From contig JADLBQ010000050.1 in NCBI GenBank assembly GCA_020847635.1, positions 1 through 42,986 on the forward strand: a stretch of DNA of 42,986 nt, read 5' to 3'. Shown piece by piece: positions 21,546 through 34,441 of this stretch (position 1 is the first letter of the stretch; every line of letters starts with the position of its first letter). The translations under genes were made by a program, and so were the position numbers. The notes beneath the pieces were generated by a model. The model saw nothing but the letters and a program-made list of their open reading frames with translations. It did no database searches and had not been told where the DNA came from. This DNA comes from Bacteroidia bacterium. Its GTDB lineage: Bacteria > Bacteroidota > Bacteroidia > AKYH767-A > OLB10.

Positions 21546-24500
21546 TTAATTGAGAATGACTTTTACTGATTTCCGAACCTGGTCATTTTCAAGAACAATT
21601 AAATACACTCCGGGCGAAACATGATTCACATTCATATCTAAACCATTTTCTCCTTGCTGAAGACTCACCGTTTCCTGAATCAACTCCTTACCTAACAAAT
21701 CATATAATGTAATTACACTCAGGTTATTATCGGGTGATTTAATATTCAGATGAATCATTCCCTCCGTAGCCGGATTCGGATTTGCATCCATAGTAAGTTG
21801 AGTAGTATTACTACCTAAACCTGTAGTCTTACAAACAAATGCAACATTAATTGATGATTCTGTGCTCATTCCACAGGAATTAACAGCCTTGACCAGCACT
21901 TTCCCTGCTATTGTTCCCCAATTAACTACAACTGCAGCAGCTGGTGTTGTTAATATAAATGATTGTGAAGTAGTAACTCCGTCACTGATTGTTGCCTGTT
22001 GCGGAACACGCCACCGGTAAGCATTTGCACCTGATACCGGGTTGGTTGAATAAGAAACTCCCTGTTGACCAATACACACCCCCGAAGGTCCGGTTATTGC
22101 AGAAGGCATTTCGGGGAATCCCCTAATGAGTAAAATTCTTGAATTACCCGTTGTACAGACATTTACACTGGCAATTTTGATGTTTGTTTTCTCATAGTTA
22201 TTTTGGAAAGCAACCGTAATGGAATGAGTACCCTGTCCGGAAAGAATTGTGACTTTTGAATCATCATCAAATGACCAGTTATAGCTAAGCCCGGGAATAT
22301 TGGTTACTGAATAGGTTTGTTGAGAATTACAGACCCCGAATTGAGGACCATTAATCACTGAAGGAAATGGCGGAATATCTTTATAAACAATCCTTTCAAC
22401 CGGACTGCTTGTACCACAACTGTTTTCTGCGACTACTGAAATAATTCCCGATCTTCCAAATTGATTATCAAACTCCACTTTAATTGCTTTTGTCCCCTGT
22501 CCGTTTAATATAGTGGCTCCCTGCGGAACTGACCAGTTATAAGTTACTCCAGCAACTTCAGGCACCCTGTAATTTCTAATCTCCCCTGGACAGATCTTAA
22601 AGGGGCTCCCGGTTTGCGTTATCTTGCCAGGGGAATCCGGAGGATTACATATACAACCATTAACAACAATAACCGTTTGGTCACTGTTGCTGCAACCTGC
22701 CGGATCAGTATAACTATAAGTTAGGGTATAACTTCCGGGACCGATAACCGGGTTAAACTGATTGTTTACAACACCTGGTCCACTAAAAATTCCTCCTGAG
22801 GGTGTCCCGTATAACATGAGAACTCCGCTTGTATCGCATACAGAGTTGTAATTTCCCGCATCAATAGCTGGAAGTGAATTAACAGCCTGTGTTGATGTTG
22901 CTGTCTTCACACATCCATACTCATCTGAATAAGTATAGGTGACGATATAGTTACCCGCACCAATTGAAGGGTTAAATTGATTATTAGAAACTCCAGTGCC
23001 ACTATACGCACCACCTACAGGATTACCGCCTGATAAGCTAAACGGTGCTGCATTCTCACAAACCGGATTAAGGCTGCTTAATGTAACTGTTGTATTACTA
23101 ACCGTCACTGTTACGGGTATCCGTCCGCTAACACAAGATAGAGGCTGTAACACCCAGTTATAATAAAAATAATAATAGCTGCTCCCAGCAGAAGATCCGG
23201 TAATGCTAATCAGGTTCCCGCCATTATATGGATAGGTAGTGCCAGCTGAATTTCGGTACAAATTCATTGATGAACCGCCTAACCTGAATCCGGTACCTGG
23301 TGTAAGAGCAAGATTCAATGTAACTGTCTGTACACCTGAGGTCAGGGTTACCGGTATAGTCTGAAGTACCTGCCCCTGACTGTTCCATAAAATAATATTT
23401 CGGTTCCCGGCTGATCCGGAGTTAACAAGGACCGAAACCAGAGTACAAGGTTGGAAAACATCAAAAATCAGGTATTGTGAGGTCGAGTAATTATAGAAAC
23501 TTCCAGATCCAAAATTATACGATGCTGGACCTGCATTTACGGATGTTGAGCTAACTCTGTTTTCAACATAATAAGTAGTTGAAGCATTAAGCACAGGAGT
23601 AGTAAAGTTTGAGCCGGTTGCCAGCTGATTACCACCCGTTTGTTGATCAAACCAGTAAACCGTTCCATTAGCTGATGCACTTAACGTGACAGCACCTGGC
23701 GAACAAATAGTATCACCTTCAGCTACGGGAGATTGAGGAGTTTCAATCTCAATAAAACTTGCTTTTACAATCGAATCCGAACCACAAGCTCCATTAATTG
23801 TAAGAGAAACTGAATAGTGTCCAGGATTAGAATAGGTATGAACCGGATTTTCAAGATTACTCGAATTTCCATCTCCAAAATTCCAGGAGTAGCTTCCAGC
23901 GTTGGTTGATGTATTGATAAAAGAAACAGTAAAAGGAAGAGAACAGGAATTTGTTGTTACAGCTGAAAAATCAGCTGTAACTGTAGCATTAAATACTGAT
24001 CCAACACCAACAGCATACCATGCATTGGTTACTGTAATCACTTCTGGTGAACACGGGCCATATAAGTCTTCAGTTGCTTTAATTGAATAATATCGGGCAT
24101 CAGTGTATTGAGAAGTCGGAGTCAGATAAATTGTTAATGTCCGGTAAGCAATTGCAGCAGCTTTAGCCATTCCGATACCTGTAATATTATAACTATTACC
24201 ATTATCATTGGTTCCAGAACCACCCATTGTTATAAGGTAAAACCAATAATTCTGAACACCACTGTTATAATGTACACCGCCATTATCGCCCGATCCGGTG
24301 TACCAGTATGTTCCCAGGTAAGTATTTGGCTGCTGATAGGTTTTTGGATTAGACATGCTTCTGAAAGGTGTCCCGAAATCTTCTCCTATTAACCAGTCAG
24401 CAGTTGGGAGATGCCCGTAAAATTCAATAATGGTTCCAAAAATGTCAGAGAATGATTCATTTAACGCTCCTGACTGATAAGAATAATTCAGATTAGCAGT

Positions 24501-25655
24501 ATATGAGGTCAAACCATGTGTAATTTCATGTCCACATACATCTAAAGAAGTAAGTGGAGTATATGATGAGTTCCCGTCACCGTAGGTCATTCGTGAGCCA
24601 TCCCAGAAAGCATTTACATAGTTGGTGCTGTAATGAACATAGCTTAAGAGTTTTAGCCCGGCATTATCAATGCTGTTTCTTCCAAAAGTAGTTAAGTAAT
24701 AATCATACGTCATTTCAGCTCCGTAATGAGCATCGGTTGCATACTGGTCTAGGTTAGCATTGACATTATTCCAATAATTATCTGAATCTGTAAAATCAAC
24801 TGCCGAACTATAACTGCTGCCCTTATTCAGGTTATAGGTTTCAATACCTGCCCCTCTCCCGGTTTCCCGCAACCTGTAAATTGAACCAGTATAATCTGTT
24901 GTGATTGTTTTTGTCCCAACATACCCGGTTACAGCTGTTCCCGAAGCATTTGCATGCTGCAGGAGCTCATTACTGTGAATCACTTCACCGGAACGTGCAT
25001 CAACATAAACCTGCTTTCTGGAAACAGGATCCTGAGCATAAATATCAAATTCCCAGGCAAGGGAATATTCATTTACATTTTCCGGTAATGAATGAGGTGC
25101 ATAAACCAAGTTCCCGGATGGATAAAAAGTAGCATTTGGATTTTGCTGCTCTGATTTCAGCCAGGATTCTTCTGCAGGAAATTGCCATTTGTATGTTGAC
25201 GCACCAATAAACCTTAATGCTTTGTTTAATGCAGCATCTCTTTGTATAGCCGGAGTGTTATCCGATTCAATAAACTTAGGAATTACTCCATTGATTGATT
25301 TAATCCTTCCTGCTATGGTATGAAAAATATACATTGATCCGATAACAGGGAACTTGTTATAAGTTGCCCGATACCTGTAATGTTTCATACCGAGCTTATC
25401 TTCTTCAACAGCCAAAAGCTCAAGCCCGGCAGCCGGAGGTAAACCAAAATGCTCTTTTAAAAAATTTTCTCCATCAGAGAACTCGGGCATCGAAGCCGAA
25501 GCATAAACTACATGCAAAGGCACCAGGGTATTTTGATCCAGGTAAACCGTTTCGCTTCCCTTTACTTTAAGCATTGCTTCAGTACCCCTGTGAAGTTGAG
25601 CATTGATGATTGTAACAATAAAAGCAGCACAAATTGTTAGAATTAGTTTTTTCAT
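21546..25655 (-). CDS. Secreted M4 (thermolysin-family) metalloprotease with PKD/Ig modules and T9SS sorting domain
   Basis: Start 25655 gives the signal peptide MKKLILTICAAFIVTIINAQ; an in-frame ATG at 25700 would add a leader of 15 residues. Domains in this 1369-residue protein: FTP/PepSY propeptide (about 45-225), M4 catalytic domain (about 240-555) with zinc site H376-E377-I-T-H380 and E400 (NESFSD), the same 24-residue spacing as thermolysin H142/E166, and the catalytic His in GGVHYNSGVQNYW. Then come a PKD domain (SWNFGDGNSSNLENPVHTY), an Ig-like/beta-sandwich module shared with the cargo at 37618-40275, two tandem GVxNNQFNP repeats, and three PKD-like repeats. A type A sorting domain starts near NPNPATEGMIHLNI and ends VRKSVKVILN. 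It should be a secreted, self-processed protease. Confidence 0.95.
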   Translation of the reverse strand: MKKLILTICAAFIVTIINAQLHRGTEAMLKVKGSETVYLDQNTLVPLHVVYASASMPEFSDGENFLKEHFGLPPAAGLELLAVEEDKLGMKHYRYRATYNKFPVIGSMYIFHTIAGRIKSINGVIPKFIESDNTPAIQRDAALNKALRFIGASTYKWQFPAEESWLKSEQQNPNATFYPSGNLVYAPHSLPENVNEYSLAWEFDIYAQDPVSRKQVYVDARSGEVIHSNELLQHANASGTAVTGYVGTKTITTDYTGSIYRLRETGRGAGIETYNLNKGSSYSSAVDFTDSDNYWNNVNANLDQYATDAHYGAEMTYDYYLTTFGRNSIDNAGLKLLSYVHYSTNYVNAFWDGSRMTYGDGNSSYTPLTSLDVCGHEITHGLTSYTANLNYSYQSGALNESFSDIFGTIIEFYGHLPTADWLIGEDFGTPFRSMSNPKTYQQPNTYLGTYWYTGSGDNGGVHYNSGVQNYWFYLITMGGSGTNDNGNSYNITGIGMAKAAAIAYRTLTIYLTPTSQYTDARYYSIKATEDLYGPCSPEVITVTNAWYAVGVGSVFNATVTADFSAVTTNSCSLPFTVSFINTSTNAGSYSWNFGDGNSSNLENPVHTYSNPGHYSVSLTINGACGSDSIVKASFIEIETPQSPVAEGDTICSPGAVTLSASANGTVYWFDQQTGGNQLATGSNFTTPVLNASTTYYVENRVSSTSVNAGPASYNFGSGSFYNYSTSQYLIFDVFQPCTLVSVLVNSGSAGNRNIILWNSQGQVLQTIPVTLTSGVQTVTLNLALTPGTGFRLGGSSMNLYRNSAGTTYPYNGGNLISITGSSAGSSYYYFYYNWVLQPLSCVSGRIPVTVTVSNTTVTLSSLNPVCENAAPFSLSGGNPVGGAYSGTGVSNNQFNPSIGAGNYIVTYTYSDEYGCVKTATSTQAVNSLPAIDAGNYNSVCDTSGVLMLYGTPSGGIFSGPGVVNNQFNPVIGPGSYTLTYSYTDPAGCSNSDQTVIVVNGCICNPPDSPGKITQTGSPFKICPGEIRNYRVPEVAGVTYNWSVPQGATILNGQGTKAIKVEFDNQFGRSGIISVVAENSCGTSSPVERIVYKDIPPFPSVINGPQFGVCNSQQTYSVTNIPGLSYNWSFDDDSKVTILSGQGTHSITVAFQNNYEKTNIKIASVNVCTTGNSRILLIRGFPEMPSAITGPSGVCIGQQGVSYSTNPVSGANAYRWRVPQQATISDGVTTSQSFILTTPAAAVVVNWGTIAGKVLVKAVNSCGMSTESSINVAFVCKTTGLGSNTTQLTMDANPNPATEGMIHLNIKSPDNNLSVITLYDLLGKELIQETVSLQQGENGLDMNVNHVSPGVYLIVLENDQVRKSVKVILN

Positions 25656-25871
25656 AAATGTATGATTTATAATTTGATACGTCTGTAAAAGGCGCTGCAA
25701 TTTACAAATAAAGGACTGACATTATCAAGTGCTGGATAGACCCGTTTAAAAACAATCAGTCTTTCCGGATTACCTGAACCTGATTGATTAAAGAAAGAAA
25801 TTTTCAGAAAATACTCTTATAAGAAGGTATCGTTTTAACTTAGCAGCCAAGGTTTTGCAGACCATTAGTGT

Positions 25872-27119
25872 ATGTCAAAGAGTGAGATTCGAAGATTATT
25901 TGAAGTATTGTTTAGCCATGCATCAGAAGGTATTATTCTCTGTCTTAAAGACGGTACTATTCATTCAGCCAATCCGGTTGCCTGTCATCAGTTTGGTTAT
26001 GAGGAAGGCGAACTGAACAATGAGAAAATTGAAGTGCTGATCCCTAAAAAATCAAGGGAAAGCCATATAGAATACCGGCATGAATACAATGAAGAATCCA
26101 GCCACAGAAGAATGGGACATGACCGGGAGACACTGGGTTTAACCAAGCAAGGTAAAGAGTTTCCGGTGGAGGTTAGTTTGAGTCCTGCGGTTATTGATGG
26201 AAAAGAGATTATTGTGGTTTTTACCTTAGATGTCTCGAAAAGCAAAAACCAGGAACAGCTGATTCAGAGAAAGCAAAAAGAACTGGAAGCCCTTACGCAG
26301 CGTCTGATGCAAACCAATGAACAGCTCGAAAAAAAAGTTGCAGATCGTACCAAAGTGCTTCACGAAGCATTAACAGCACTTGAAAACTCAAAAGAGGAAT
26401 TACAGAAATCACTTGTGAAAGAAAGAGAATTAAACGAACTGAAATCCCGTTTTCTGAGCATGGCTTCTCATGAATTCCGTACCCCGTTAACAGCCATACT
26501 TTCATCAGCCGGACTGATTGGTGAATACAAGGAAGAAACGCATCAGGAAAAAAGGCTTAAACACGTTGAGCGAATTACAAATGCAGTGATCAGCCTGAAT
26601 GATATTTTGACGGATTTCCTTTCATACAGTAAATTTGAAGAAGGTAAAATTGCCGTTGACTTCAAATCGTTTCATTTAACCGACCTGCTTGATGAAGTTA
26701 AAGCAGAAGTTAAAGCTTTATTACAAAAGAATCAGCGAATAATCACCAGATATAAAGGAGAATCAGAAATTATCAGTGACCGTAAACTAATCCGCCAGAT
26801 TTTGATTAATCTGCTTTCCAATGCGATTAAGTATTCATATGAAAATTCAGAAATCAGGCTTATCACCAATGTAACATCACGACTCCTGAATTTTGAAATT
26901 CATGATAAGGGAATTGGTATCAGCCAGGAAGATCAGAAACACTTGTTTGAACGCTTTTTCAGGGGCTCCAATGCAGGAAGCATCCAGGGTACGGGACTAG
27001 GACTCAATATTGTTAACGGCTATGTTGAATTATTGAATGGTGAAATTACTTTTGAAAGTAAACTTAAAAAAGGAACTTCATTTTTTATTACTATACCTTT
27101 AAAAAAACAAAATTATTAA
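25872..27119 (+). CDS. PAS-domain sensor histidine kinase, soluble
   Basis: The 415-residue protein has no membrane segment. An N-terminal PAS domain (about 8-125) is followed by a coiled coil (about 125-190), a HisKA domain with phospho-acceptor H200 (FLSMASHEFRTPLTA), and a HATPase with N316 (LLSNAIKYS), DKGIGI at 345-350 and GTGLGL at 373-378. The PAS belongs to the S-box type with RETLGLTKQGKEFPVEVSLS. H65 and R85 fall, by my count, at the positions of the FixL heme-ligand His and the distal Arg, 20 residues apart; non-heme PAS proteins of this type often keep them too. The stop codon overlaps the start of the receiver-CRP regulator by one base (TAATG), so they form a cognate pair. Confidence 0.95.
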   Translation: MSKSEIRRLFEVLFSHASEGIILCLKDGTIHSANPVACHQFGYEEGELNNEKIEVLIPKKSRESHIEYRHEYNEESSHRRMGHDRETLGLTKQGKEFPVEVSLSPAVIDGKEIIVVFTLDVSKSKNQEQLIQRKQKELEALTQRLMQTNEQLEKKVADRTKVLHEALTALENSKEELQKSLVKERELNELKSRFLSMASHEFRTPLTAILSSAGLIGEYKEETHQEKRLKHVERITNAVISLNDILTDFLSYSKFEEGKIAVDFKSFHLTDLLDEVKAEVKALLQKNQRIITRYKGESEIISDRKLIRQILINLLSNAIKYSYENSEIRLITNVTSRLLNFEIHDKGIGISQEDQKHLFERFFRGSNAGSIQGTGLGLNIVNGYVELLNGEITFESKLKKGTSFFITIPLKKQNY

Positions 27120-28177
27120 TGTACACTGTTCTACTAATTGAAGACAACCGGGCTGTTCGTGAAAACACTGCTGAGATTCTCGAACTTGCAGGTTATAAAG
27201 TTATTACTGCCATTAATGGTAAAAAAGGAGTTGAAGCAGCTTTTAAGCATCTTCCTGACTTGATTATCTGTGACATTATGATGCCGGTTTTAGACGGATA
27301 TGGAGTACTTCACCTTCTGTCTAAAAAAAATGCAACTACCAATATTCCCTTTATTTTTCTGACAGCAAAAACAGAAAGAAGTGATATGCGAAAAGGAATG
27401 GAGTTAGGAGCTGATGACTTTATCACTAAACCTTTTGAAAAACGCGAATTGCTGAATGCAGTAGAGAACCGCTTAAAAAAAATTGAATCCTTAAAAAAAG
27501 ATTTTGAACAGATGCTGGATGGTTTGTCAACCTTTATTTCACCAGCAGGAGGCAAAAACATCCTTCAGAAATTTGTTCAAAGTAAAAAGATTAATTTTCA
27601 TAAAAAGAAGGATACTATCTATATGGAAGGAAATTATGCAGGAGGTATGTATTATGTTGTAAGTGGAAAAATTAAAACCTTTAAAACCCACTCATATGGT
27701 AAAGATCTGATTCTGGATTTATTGAAAGAAGGTCAGTTTTTCGGATATGCTGATATTATCCTGGGGGAAAGGCATAACGATTCGGCCCAGGCACTGGAAG
27801 ATTCAAAGATTATTTTTATTCCACGTGATGAAATTGAACCATTAATTCTAAGTCACAAGGAAGTAGCAGGTAAATTTCTCAGAATCCTGACGAAGAATCT
27901 TGCTGACCGGCAGGAACAGATGATGAAAATTGCTTATAGTTCGGTTCGCAGGAGGGTTGCTGAAGCCTTGCTTTATCTATATGACAAATTTAAAACAGAT
28001 GATCCTGAACCTGTTAAAATTACACTTACCCGTGAAGAGCTGGCTAATCTGGTTGGAACCGCCACTGAATCATTAATCCGTACCTTAAGTGACTTCAAAG
28101 AGGAGAAACTGATTAGTATCAAAGAAGGAAAAATTTTCATTCTCAATGAAGAAAAACTTAAAGGTATTAAAAACTGA
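27119..28177 (+). CDS. Response regulator: receiver fused to CRP/FNR-type transcription factor
   Basis: The 352-residue product has a receiver at 1-122 with acidic E8-D9, phosphoacceptor D52 (IICDIMMPVLDGYG), T82 and K104 (FITKPF). A cyclic-nucleotide-binding-fold domain follows at about 145-265 (MEGNYAGGMYYVVSGKIKTF, GQFFGYADIILGE), then a CRP helix-turn-helix at about 300-335 (LTREELANLVGTATESLIRT). The family is a transcription activator or repressor; fusion to a receiver lets phosphorylation replace or add to ligand control. The E of the FGY/GE pocket is present but the classic RxS cAMP-binding motif is not evident, so cAMP binding is doubtful. The kinase immediately upstream is the obvious donor. 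Confidence 0.95.
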   Translation: MYTVLLIEDNRAVRENTAEILELAGYKVITAINGKKGVEAAFKHLPDLIICDIMMPVLDGYGVLHLLSKKNATTNIPFIFLTAKTERSDMRKGMELGADDFITKPFEKRELLNAVENRLKKIESLKKDFEQMLDGLSTFISPAGGKNILQKFVQSKKINFHKKKDTIYMEGNYAGGMYYVVSGKIKTFKTHSYGKDLILDLLKEGQFFGYADIILGERHNDSAQALEDSKIIFIPRDEIEPLILSHKEVAGKFLRILTKNLADRQEQMMKIAYSSVRRRVAEALLYLYDKFKTDDPEPVKITLTREELANLVGTATESLIRTLSDFKEEKLISIKEGKIFILNEEKLKGIKN

Positions 28178-28203: not shown

Positions 28204-28731
28204 ATGTCACTTAATCCGAAAACTGCTCAGCAAACAGTTAGTATCACAACAGAAATTGTACTCCCGAACGATACCAACACATTAGGTAATCTGATGGGGG
28301 GCCGTTTACTTCACTGGATGGATATCTGTGCAGCTGTTTCAGCACACCGCCATTGTGGCCGCGTAGTCGTCACAGCATCCGTCAATAATGTTTCATTTAA
28401 TCAGCCGATCAAACTGGGTGAAATTGTGACCTTGCAGGCTAAAGTCTCGAGAGCATTTACATCCAGCATGGAAGTGTTTATTGATGTTTGGGTCGAAAAC
28501 AATCAGACTGGCGAAAAAATTAAATGCAATGAAGCAATCTACACCTTTGTTGCCGTTGACCAGGTTGGCAATCCGATTGCTGTTCCTCAGCTGATTCCAG
28601 AAACTGAGGAAGAGCAAAAACGCTTTGACGGTGCGTTAAGAAGAAAACAGCTTGCTCTTATTCTGGCTGGGAAAATGAACCCACATGATGCAACCGAACT
28701 AAAAGCATTGTTCTTAATTAAGAAGGAATGA
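28204..28731 (+). CDS. Acyl-CoA thioesterase, hotdog fold (YciA/BACH type)
   Basis: The 175-residue product hydrolyses acyl-CoA to free acid and CoA. The family motif lies at residues 29-40 (NLMGGRLLHWMD), with N29 and D40 at the usual positions for this group. VTASVNNVSFNQPIKLGEIV and YTFVAVD are also typical. It sits 26 bases after the receiver-CRP regulator on the same strand, so it may be part of that transcript. With the thiolase at 19.9 kb it hints at acyl-CoA metabolism nearby, though they are separate units. Confidence 0.92.
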   Translation: MSLNPKTAQQTVSITTEIVLPNDTNTLGNLMGGRLLHWMDICAAVSAHRHCGRVVVTASVNNVSFNQPIKLGEIVTLQAKVSRAFTSSMEVFIDVWVENNQTGEKIKCNEAIYTFVAVDQVGNPIAVPQLIPETEEEQKRFDGALRRKQLALILAGKMNPHDATELKALFLIKKE

Positions 28732-28797: not shown

Positions 28798-29499
28798 ATG
28801 AAAAATCTATCTATTATCTTAATGGGATTATGGTTGTTATCTGCTGCTGCTAAGGCACAGCATCCACCTGATAAATCAGGATATACATTAACCACCTCTG
28901 AAATGATTTTTTCATCAGGAACGCTTAAAAACGGTAATATGAAAATAGACCCTGTAATACGGTTTTCCGGCTTTTTCCATTTTCAGAATCAGTTTCATTT
29001 TGATCTGAATGATTTTACCGGAATTTATACAGGCATTGGCATCCGTAATATTGGTTTTATTAATAAGCTGAATGATTCAGTCAGAATCAAACAACGCTCC
29101 TACAGCCTAGGCATTCCATTTGCTTTTAAATTTGGAAATATGAAAGACAAAATCTGGTTTGCAGCAGGTGCAGAAGCTGAACTGATGTTTGCCTATAAAC
29201 AAAAAGTATTTTATGGCGGACAGAAATTTAAGAATTACAAGTGGTTCTCGGACAAGGTCAATCTTTTTAATCCGGGACTTTTTGCAGAAATTCATTTCAA
29301 AGACGGAGTTTACATTCGGGCAAAATACTATCTGTTTGACTTTTTGAAAGAAGATAAACAGGAAATCAAATTATTTGGTATTCCTTATGACTTTACACCC
29401 GAAGAAAGTAAACTATTTTATATTTCAATCGGGAAAACCATAACACCCAGGAAAGCACTCAGAAAAAAAGGTAAAATAAAGACCGGTACAGTCAGTTAA
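28798..29499 (+). CDS. Hypothetical outer-membrane barrel-like protein
   Basis: The 233-residue product has a signal peptide (MKNLSIILMGLWLLSAAAKA) followed by alternating beta strands rich in aromatics (for example FHFDLNDFTGIYTGIGIRNI and GVYIRAKYYLFDF). The size and pattern fit an eight- to ten-strand Bacteroidota outer-membrane barrel of the OmpW/PorT-like class. It ends in a basic tail (ALRKKGKIKTGTVS). No specific function is recognised. It starts 66 bases after the thioesterase and overlaps the convergent methyltransferase by four bases. Confidence 0.8.
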   Translation: MKNLSIILMGLWLLSAAAKAQHPPDKSGYTLTTSEMIFSSGTLKNGNMKIDPVIRFSGFFHFQNQFHFDLNDFTGIYTGIGIRNIGFINKLNDSVRIKQRSYSLGIPFAFKFGNMKDKIWFAAGAEAELMFAYKQKVFYGGQKFKNYKWFSDKVNLFNPGLFAEIHFKDGVYIRAKYYLFDFLKEDKQEIKLFGIPYDFTPEESKLFYISIGKTITPRKALRKKGKIKTGTVS

Positions 29500-33140: not shown

Positions 33141-33148
33141 TAGTTTTG
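33141..33148 (+). promoter_or_regulatory. Bacteroidota -7 promoter element
   Basis: TAGTTTTG matches TAnnTTTG, 15 bases before the OmpR-type regulator start at 33164. No TTG at the -33 position. Confidence 0.5.
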
Positions 33149-33163
33149 TACCTGAGTTCTGAG

Positions 33164-33853
33164 ATGCTAACACGAATTTTACTTGTTGAAGATGAGCCTG
33201 CTTTGGCTGATACAATCAAGCTTAACCTGGAGCTTGAAAAATACCATGTTACTGCTGTTGCAGATGGTAAACAAGCTGTACGTACATTTAAAGAAGCCAG
33301 GTTTGACCTGATTGTTCTGGATATTATGTTACCCGGTCTTGACGGATTTTCTGTTTGCCAGGCTATTCGGCTTGAAAATACTCAGGTTCCGATTCTTATG
33401 CTTACTGCCAAAAATACAAGCAATGACAGAATTGAAGGATTGAAAATTGGTGCTGACGACTACCTCACTAAACCATTTAACCTTGAAGAATTACTGCTTC
33501 GTATCAGTAACCTGCTTAGAAGATCACAGAAAAAAGGAAGCGATAAGGTTCAACGTTATTCTTTAAATGGTTATGAAATTGATTTCCTTAGTCACGAGGT
33601 AAAAAAACCAGATGAATCAAAAATTCAACTAACCAAAAAGGAAGCTGCTTTGCTGAAACTGCTTATTGAAAGGAAAAATGAAGTGATTTCGAGAGAACAT
33701 ATCCTTGAAACAGTCTGGAGTTATGATGTTTATCCAAATACCCGGACAATTGACAATTTCATTGTTACATTCAGAAAATATTTTGAGCCAGATCCTTCCC
33801 ATCCGAAGCATTTCCTGTCCGTAAGAGGAGTAGGATATAAATTTACCGACTAA
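33164..33853 (+). CDS. OmpR/PhoB-family response regulator
   Basis: The 229-residue DNA-binding response regulator has a receiver with E9-D10-E11 (LLVEDEPALAD), phosphoacceptor D53 (LIVLDIMLPGLDGF), T81 and K103 (LTKPF), then a winged helix with LTKKEAALLKLLIER, VISREHILETVWSYD, RTIDNFIVTFRKYFE and VRGVGYKF. ATG 33164 is preferred over an in-frame TTG at 33146, which would lie inside the promoter element. No kinase gene is adjacent, so it is an orphan here. A DUF7935-like membrane protein gene, NUDIX and pyrE follow, a block that recurs in Bacteroidota as far as I recall. Confidence 0.95.
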   Translation: MLTRILLVEDEPALADTIKLNLELEKYHVTAVADGKQAVRTFKEARFDLIVLDIMLPGLDGFSVCQAIRLENTQVPILMLTAKNTSNDRIEGLKIGADDYLTKPFNLEELLLRISNLLRRSQKKGSDKVQRYSLNGYEIDFLSHEVKKPDESKIQLTKKEAALLKLLIERKNEVISREHILETVWSYDVYPNTRTIDNFIVTFRKYFEPDPSHPKHFLSVRGVGYKFTD

Positions 33854-33864
33854 GATTAGGGAAA

Positions 33865-33904
33865 GCAAGCAATGCTTGCAGATAGATATTTCCTATTAGT
33901 TTTG
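33865..33904 (+). promoter_or_regulatory. Promoter with palindromic operator candidate
   Basis: TTG (33876-33878) and TAGTTTTG (33897-33904) are spaced 18 bases apart, a good -33/-7 pair. A 15-base palindrome (GCAAGCA-A-TGCTTGC, 33865-33879) overlaps the -33 element. The downstream ATGs at 33908 and 33911 are only four to seven bases from the -7 element, which would give a leaderless message. Confidence 0.45.
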
Positions 33905-33910
33905 CCGATG

Positions 33911-34441
33911 ATGAATTCAGCAAAAACTCTTCTCGACACCCTGTTTATTCTGGCACCGGCTGTCCTTGTTCTGATAACATCCTTCTTCTTAATCAAGAAG
34001 TTTCTAGATAACCAGCACCGTTTAAAAGTCATAGAACTTAAGATGCAGTTCCAAAAAGATATCATGCCTTTACGTTTTCAGGCATACGAGCGGCTGGTCC
34101 TGTTTCTTGAACGAATTACTCCCAATAATCTTCTGCACAGGATTTATTTACCTGACTATTCTGTTAAAGAATTTCATCTTGAGTTATTGTCGGCAATCCG
34201 TCAGGAATTTGAGCATAATATCACTCAACAAATTTATGTAACTTCTGATGCCTGGAGTTCTGTTAAAACTGCCAGAGATGAAGTAATAAAATTATTAAAC
34301 AAGGCTGCCTCTCAGGTAATCAGCCAGGACAAGGCATCTGCTTTGAATAAAGCTGTATTTGATTTGATAATGAACGAAAACTGGAATAAAGTCGAAGAAT
34401 CTATTGAGGAAATCAAATCAGAAATGAACAGGAATCAATGA
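33911..34441 (+). CDS. DUF7935-like membrane protein
   Basis: The frame opens with an ATG at 33872, but that ATG would lie upstream of the promoter candidate, so I choose 33911 (33908 is equally possible). The product, 176 residues from 33911, has one membrane segment (LLDTLFILAPAVLVLITSFF) followed by a basic, helical domain: QKDIMPLRFQAYERLVLFLE, then RITPNNLLHRIYL and a long C-terminal helix. RFQAYERLVLFLERITP matches, by eye, a conserved Bacteroidota family (DUF7935). Function is unknown. It lies 57 bases after the OmpR-type regulator and ends 14 bases before the convergent NUDIX gene. Confidence 0.8.
   Translation: MNSAKTLLDTLFILAPAVLVLITSFFLIKKFLDNQHRLKVIELKMQFQKDIMPLRFQAYERLVLFLERITPNNLLHRIYLPDYSVKEFHLELLSAIRQEFEHNITQQIYVTSDAWSSVKTARDEVIKLLNKAASQVISQDKASALNKAVFDLIMNENWNKVEESIEEIKSEMNRNQ

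Follow-up and report, generated by a model that had tools for sequence, protein, structure and literature searches.

A putative heme-PAS kinase and a receiver-CRP fusion regulator as a candidate low-oxygen two-component switch in Bacteroidota

The primary determinant of heme binding in PAS domains of the FixL-DosP group is the F-alpha histidine (PMC10468136). A survey of the FixL/DosP cluster found that 40% of it is without this histidine, and that some members use another cofactor (Xing 2023; PMC10468136). FG214 (PDB entry 10jx) is also a heme-binding PAS protein, with His156 as the proximal ligand and His175, or perhaps Met172, as the distal ligand, and it binds heme with a leucine at the position of FixL R220 (PMC13060918). 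The arginine at that position is therefore unnecessary for heme. In rhizobia the DNA site known as the anaerobox has the sequence TTGAT-N4-ATCAA (PMC7888657). A search of the open literature, which leaves subscription journals mostly uncovered, returned nothing on receiver-CRP regulators of the kind described here, and no account of oxygen sensing in environmental Bacteroidota as detailed as those for FixL or FNR. Here we describe a kinase-regulator gene pair which is probably a low-oxygen (or heme-redox) two-component switch, similar to FixL-FixJ-FixK but with FixJ and FixK in one chain.

The pair lies on the forward strand of a 42,986-nucleotide stretch of DNA from a Bacteroidia bacterium (the window). 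The upstream gene (25872..27119) encodes a PAS sensor histidine kinase of 415 aa, made up of a PAS domain (residues 8-125; 25893..26246), a linker (126-190), a HisKA domain with the phospho-acceptor H200 (SHEFRTPL) and a HATPase_c domain. The matching Pfam calls are PAS_9/PAS at 10-122, HisKA at 191-258 and HATPase_c at 303-411, the last two forming a FixL-type transmitter. No hydrophobic transmembrane stretch was seen in the kinase by eye, without a predictor, and on this inspection the protein is predicted to be soluble and cytoplasmic. The downstream gene (27119..28177) encodes a response regulator of 352 aa, REC-CRP, with Response_reg at 4-116, cNMP_binding at 162-245 and HTH_Crp_2 at 279-348; its CRP/FNR-type output spans residues ~160-352 (27596..28174). 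The two open reading frames overlap by one base, the A of a TAATG junction. An initial sequence-only reading had described a FixL-type PAS kinase coupled by TAATG to a fusion of a receiver and a CRP-family protein, and the coordinates, open reading frames and Pfam domains all agree with this. Elsewhere in the window there is an OmpR-type response regulator with no adjacent kinase gene (33146-33853), followed by a DUF7935 protein (33872-34441), and upstream of the pair (21546-25700) a secreted metalloprotease-like protein of 1384 aa that contains PKD-type repeats and, at its C terminus, a tail which by eye resembles a type IX sorting domain.

The PAS domain was compared with solved structures in two ways. 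A profile built from the PAS domains of 61 orthologues matched FixL, DosP and 10jx in the PDB at E values of 8.8e-22 to 5.7e-18, all at or below 1e-17, while the remaining solved PAS domains scored 1e-7 or worse. The best structural matches of an AF2 model of the window domain (pLDDT 90) were FixL (Z 17.3), 10jx (Z 17.2) and DosP (Z 16.0), with the best match outside these three at Z 15.4. The profile thus separates the heme-PAS group from other PAS domains clearly and the fold does so weakly. Profile and predicted fold together place the window domain in the FixL/DosP/FG214 heme-PAS group, which bears out its proposed FixL-type identity. We had also considered a generic, non-heme type of PAS because of the lability of R85 (see below), and this was overturned by the PDB profile, by FG214 and by the FixL motif of flavobacterial orthologues.

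H65 and R85 of the kinase align without gaps to residues which we take to be H200 and R220 in BjFixL numbering, and so both are present at the spacing that had been suggested. H65 is the F-alpha histidine (H77 in DosP), and the other pocket positions are R79, M81 (at the position of FG214 Met172) and H83 (at that of DosP Met95). Eight loci, three with receiver N-termini and five with another PAS, and several truncated ones are omitted from the counts for these residues. H65 is kept in 76 of 77 near orthologues and all 19 distant ones (95/96 where the PAS is homologous), and heme binding by the kinase PAS through H65 is likely, judging by the alignments and the model. R85 is kept in only 10/77 near orthologues, Met (33) and Leu (21) being the replacements, as against 17/19 distant ones, flavobacteria included. 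The expectation that both residues would be conserved among orthologues therefore held for H65 and failed, in the near group, for R85.

A kinase tree computed without residues 60-90 requires about eight changes of R85, and the branch that keeps it consists of the window kinase, that of the same-genus relative G001 and that of locus L009. As R85 is labile among the orthologues, FixL-like stabilisation of oxygen cannot be general for them; for the window kinase itself, FixL-like oxygen ligation is plausible from its residues. M81 is kept in 76/77 of the near group. Flavobacterial orthologues have the complete FixL motif, the histidine being followed 14 residues on by H-I-I-G-I-G-R, and several orthologues from distant lineages have the whole motif PHIIGIGR. 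The window kinase combines both sets of residues (H65, M81, H83 and R85). H83 or M85 as a conserved distal ligand was dropped, since position 83 is variable and position 85 is Met in under half of the sequences. A wider proposal, which we put forward tentatively and at slightly less than even odds, is that Bacteroidota as a whole share an oxygen/redox two-component system, built from a heme-PAS kinase and a CRP/FNR-type regulator of cbb3 and microaerobic genes which the kinase phosphorylates directly. One orthologous sensor would then come with two types of pocket, FixL-like (I81, R85) in flavobacteria and, in many Chitinophagales-type relatives, FG214-like with His/Met (M81, with R85 lost).

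In REC-CRP the receiver active-site residues E8, D9, D52, T82 and K104 are all kept, and they are near-invariant in 107 regulators. The output combines a cNMP-binding fold with HTH_Crp by Pfam, as in the CRP-FNR superfamily, and residues 162-347 match 2gau and other CRP/FNR chains. Going by the generally known roles of residues in CRP and FNR, the cAMP-contact positions E72, R82 and S83 of CRP fall on Y210, N220 and D221, and the contacts are lost across the 107 regulators, among which GTATESLIR, the recognition helix, hardly varies. An FNR-type N-terminal Fe-S cysteine cluster is absent from REC-CRP, the sole cysteine of which is C51, inside the receiver. The AF2 model of the full regulator was weak (pLDDT 76, pTM 0.40) and was not used. 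Identification of the protein as FixJ was rejected because its output is cNMP_binding plus HTH_Crp_2, with no LuxR/NarL-type (GerE) HTH, and identification as FixK because residues 1-120 are a receiver with a near-invariant active site.

The regulator is conserved well beyond the window. A search of the window genome and 40 related genomes detected it in 39 of the 41, with most matches full-length and a single domain matched in a few of the 39. A scan of public genomes gave at least 579 confirmed relatives, the best 80 GTDB loci of which were analysed. Identity is 50-78% across the full length in at least 80 Bacteroidota loci, and so the pair is not a chance arrangement. A search for receiver-CRP fusions beside PAS kinases, which the earlier reading had called for, found a kinase of the same family with the regulator in 77 of these best 80 loci of at least 579, nearly always immediately upstream. 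In a sample of the phylum the regulator occurs in at least 43/296 genomes, a lower bound as seven candidates were scored per genome. Copies on plasmids of Hymenobacter, Runella and Spirosoma, beside a sensor histidine kinase, are labelled merely 'response regulator' or 'transcriptional regulator'. The orthologues cluster phylogenetically and the counts of loci are not fully independent; on these comparisons the pair is old and widespread across many families of Bacteroidota, and no local oddity. At some loci the kinase has a different N-terminus. Upstream of REC-CRP at L065, L073 and L117 it has a receiver in place of the PAS, and at L037, L054, L067, L069 and L079 the adjacent kinase has a different PAS. 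These are sensor swaps at a conserved regulator.

The neighbourhood of the orthologous pairs is rich in genes of respiration and stress, identified by recognising the sequences of cluster members, with Pfam added in some cases. The cco (fix) genes for cbb3 oxidase lie within ~6 kb of the pair in 30 of the best 80 loci of at least 579, and at least one of the cco, HemN, USP, HSP20 and DoxX genes is near it in 54 of the same 80, counts which kinship among the loci inflates. With one cco cluster per ~3-Mb genome, the expected proximity is ~1% or less, as a rough estimate rather than a computed control. In distant lineages cco or HemN is near the pair at 8/20 loci, and any of the five at 13/20. 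The arrangement varies (convergent, divergent, or in line as hemN-HK-RR), and this argues for several independent linkages of the pair with respiration genes. The idea of a gas- or redox-responsive switch gains from these neighbours, the cbb3 oxidase, hemN, USP and Hsp20 genes, and from the fit of the PAS profile to the heme group. Two families of small proteins also adjoin the pair repeatedly. Members of one (c2, for example L014:7175-7573; ~32 loci) are ~130-150 aa long, have no Pfam match, share the motif FPYLKIEFF...SVQVFRxxGxVWLETSATDxWTL and have the DNA box described below, in a relaxed pattern, in 16/21 promoters. Those of the other (c4, for example L021:7071-7460; ~24 loci) are coiled-coil-like, share HQFLHENLTWGRSIDFFKQENxxLKxRL, have only a sub-threshold Pfam hit and have the relaxed box in 14/19 promoters.

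Conserved palindromes upstream of shared target genes had also been proposed as something to look for, and one was recovered. When dyads were counted in the promoters of the pair and its recurrent neighbours, TGAT-N4-ATCA ranked first (52/191 vs 13/225, p 1e-9). The refined box, (A/C)TGAY-N4-RTCA(G/T), is present in 67 of 110 target promoters (61%) vs 31/225 others (14%; Fisher p 2e-18), although it was discovered and scored on the same data and the p-values are descriptive. The stronger argument is the fixed-spacer control, in which a spacer other than 4 was found in at most 2% of target promoters and at most 3% of any promoter class. The box lies most often 60-100 nt before the start. Kinase promoters have it in 34/74 cases overall, that is in 16/16 of those shared with a divergent target and 18/58 of those not shared. 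By its sequence the box is of FNR/FixK type. Its flanking base is A or C in 200/258 cases, against T in the anaerobox, and background boxes are flanked similarly. This flank would fit the Ile which replaces FNR Ser212 in REC-CRP. Box enrichment was not recovered at distant (flavobacterial and other) loci, and a dyad search in 20 such loci brought out no strong motif. Genome-wide box counts against a reversed control did not separate genomes with and without a REC-CRP gene; many genomes in which no such gene was found are also box-enriched, probably because of coding bias.

In the window genome, 41 of the first 50 (of 85) box sites fall within open reading frames. The intergenic boxes precede a USP/multihaem cytochrome c pair, a hemerythrin gene and a divergent promoter between carbonic anhydrase and cytochrome c-narG. 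A perfect box is absent from the window kinase promoter; in G001 there is one, ATGACAAAAATCAT, ~85 nt upstream of a YgaP-like membrane gene that precedes the pair. The ccoN model TIGR00780 does not reach its cut-off in the window genome, while G001 has a cbb3 cluster of the standard kind. The window genome (G000) also contains a divergent COX1 gene (586 aa) and FixO-cytochrome c fusion (C9:15892-18677; L222:2393-5177). A nitrate-respiration region (C19:62500-71300; L195) holds the start of narG, cytochrome c, carbonic anhydrase, an Fnr-like regulator, hemerythrin and a MoaA-like gene, with two perfect boxes and, by eye, narK-like and tehA-like transporters.

The sequences show the domain architecture, the conserved adjacency of the two genes, the relationship of the sensor to heme-PAS domains, the recurrent neighbours and a box that is enriched at one fixed spacing, and we infer the following mechanism. 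The cytoplasmic PAS domain would most likely hold heme b via H65, with the distal side shaped by R85, M81 or H83. A drop in oxygen, or a change in heme ligand or redox state, would lead to autophosphorylation of the kinase at HisKA H200, and the kinase would then phosphorylate D52 of the receiver directly. The CRP-type domain would in turn dimerise on the boxes located 60-100 nt upstream of genes, and the predicted targets are genes that serve microaerobic respiration or the stress response (cbb3 oxidase with its copper/assembly factors, HemN, USP, Hsp20 and DoxX).

The pair could also be a low-oxygen or respiratory switch that works without heme, with H65 and R79 as structural leftovers and the kinase responding to a different ligand or to how reduced the quinone pool is. 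Such a sensor would accord with the Met or Leu at position 85 in most Chitinophagales-type relatives, with Pfam calling only a generic PAS_9, and with the 40% of the FixL/DosP cluster that is without the histidine, some members having another cofactor (Xing 2023; PMC10468136). We regard it as distinctly unlikely given that H65 is found in 95/96 homologous PAS domains, that every solved structure clearly nearest to it is a heme binder, FG214 with no Arg among them, and that the near group keeps M81 at the FG214 Met172 position almost throughout (76/77). Another reading is a purely local role, in which an unrelated regulator senses a metabolite and controls the adjoining genes. These are a 4HBT acyl-CoA thioesterase (28204..28731, forward strand), which starts 26 nt past the regulator stop and is probably co-transcribed with it, and a predicted outer-membrane-type (barrel-like) protein with no Pfam match (28798..29499, forward strand). 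The order regulator-thioesterase-barrel is kept in G001, but neither downstream gene recurs in other lineages and no perfect box precedes either. The sole box-like core, TGATTAGTATCA (28110-28121; ~88 nt before the thioesterase start), is perfect but lies within the regulator coding sequence, and it is probably a chance occurrence because it is not conserved in G001. This makes a local regulator very improbable, and the earlier suggestion that the two genes are targets of the pair is not upheld.

A further explanation concerns the box, which may belong mainly to a separate Fnr/HcpR-type protein, with REC-CRP using another site elsewhere and the proximity of cco genes reflecting the clustering of respiratory regulators. 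A candidate exists in the Fnr-like paralogue of the nitrate-respiration region (L195:5732-6436), which has the N-terminal Cys motif CDECKNDNC; the low frequency of the box in unshared kinase promoters (18/58) and the failure of genome-wide counts to separate genomes with and without REC-CRP point the same way. However, the recognition helix of the paralogue, GTNREQISR, differs from the GTATESLIR of REC-CRP, and the box is enriched around the loci of the REC-CRP pair. The flank, mostly A or C and not the T of the anaerobox, also speaks against this explanation, weakly since the background flank is similar. Overall we consider it unlikely, and retain REC-CRP as the putative box binder in a low-oxygen or heme-redox switch.

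The pair brings together a candidate sensor, regulator, regulon and DNA box, and is amenable to testing in genera that can be cultured (Runella, Spirosoma, Hymenobacter or Flavobacterium). If the proposal is true, REC-CRP would be a natural response regulator in which phosphorylation, and not a ligand or Fe-S cluster, switches a CRP/FNR-fold output, and the kinases would provide a natural series of heme pockets in which the FixL arginine is swapped.

Several described systems share parts of this design. With CRP and FNR, REC-CRP has in common a cNMP-binding-fold domain and HTH_Crp_2, with an invariant Glu and an invariant Arg in the recognition helix, but it is without the cAMP contacts and the cysteine cluster and has an extra receiver. 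E. coli DosP and Fimbriimonas FG214 belong to the same heme-PAS group by profile and predicted fold, with a histidine at the same F-alpha position, and the window kinase has H83 and M81 where they have Met95 and Met172 respectively. However, neither of them is a kinase with a partner regulator: DosP is a phosphodiesterase acting on c-di-GMP, and FG214 is an HTH-PAS protein of the one-component type. NmpRSTU of Myxococcus xanthus is a heme-dependent kinase system whose targets include genes for cbb3 oxidase, hemN, hemerythrin and universal stress proteins (PMC11841059), but its sensor is a globin-coupled kinase and its output is NtrC-like, reached through a multi-component phosphorelay. FixL-FixJ-FixK and hFixL-FxkR-FixK resemble the proposed switch in having a heme-PAS-type kinase, a response regulator and a CRP/FNR-family output, with cbb3 (fixNOQP) and fixGHIS as targets and a palindrome with the core TGA-N6-TCA (PMC7888657). 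In contrast to FixL-FixJ-FixK there is no NarL-type HTH here, the half-site has mostly A/C where the anaerobox has T, and the receiver and CRP-type output form one protein, without a transcriptional relay via fixK.
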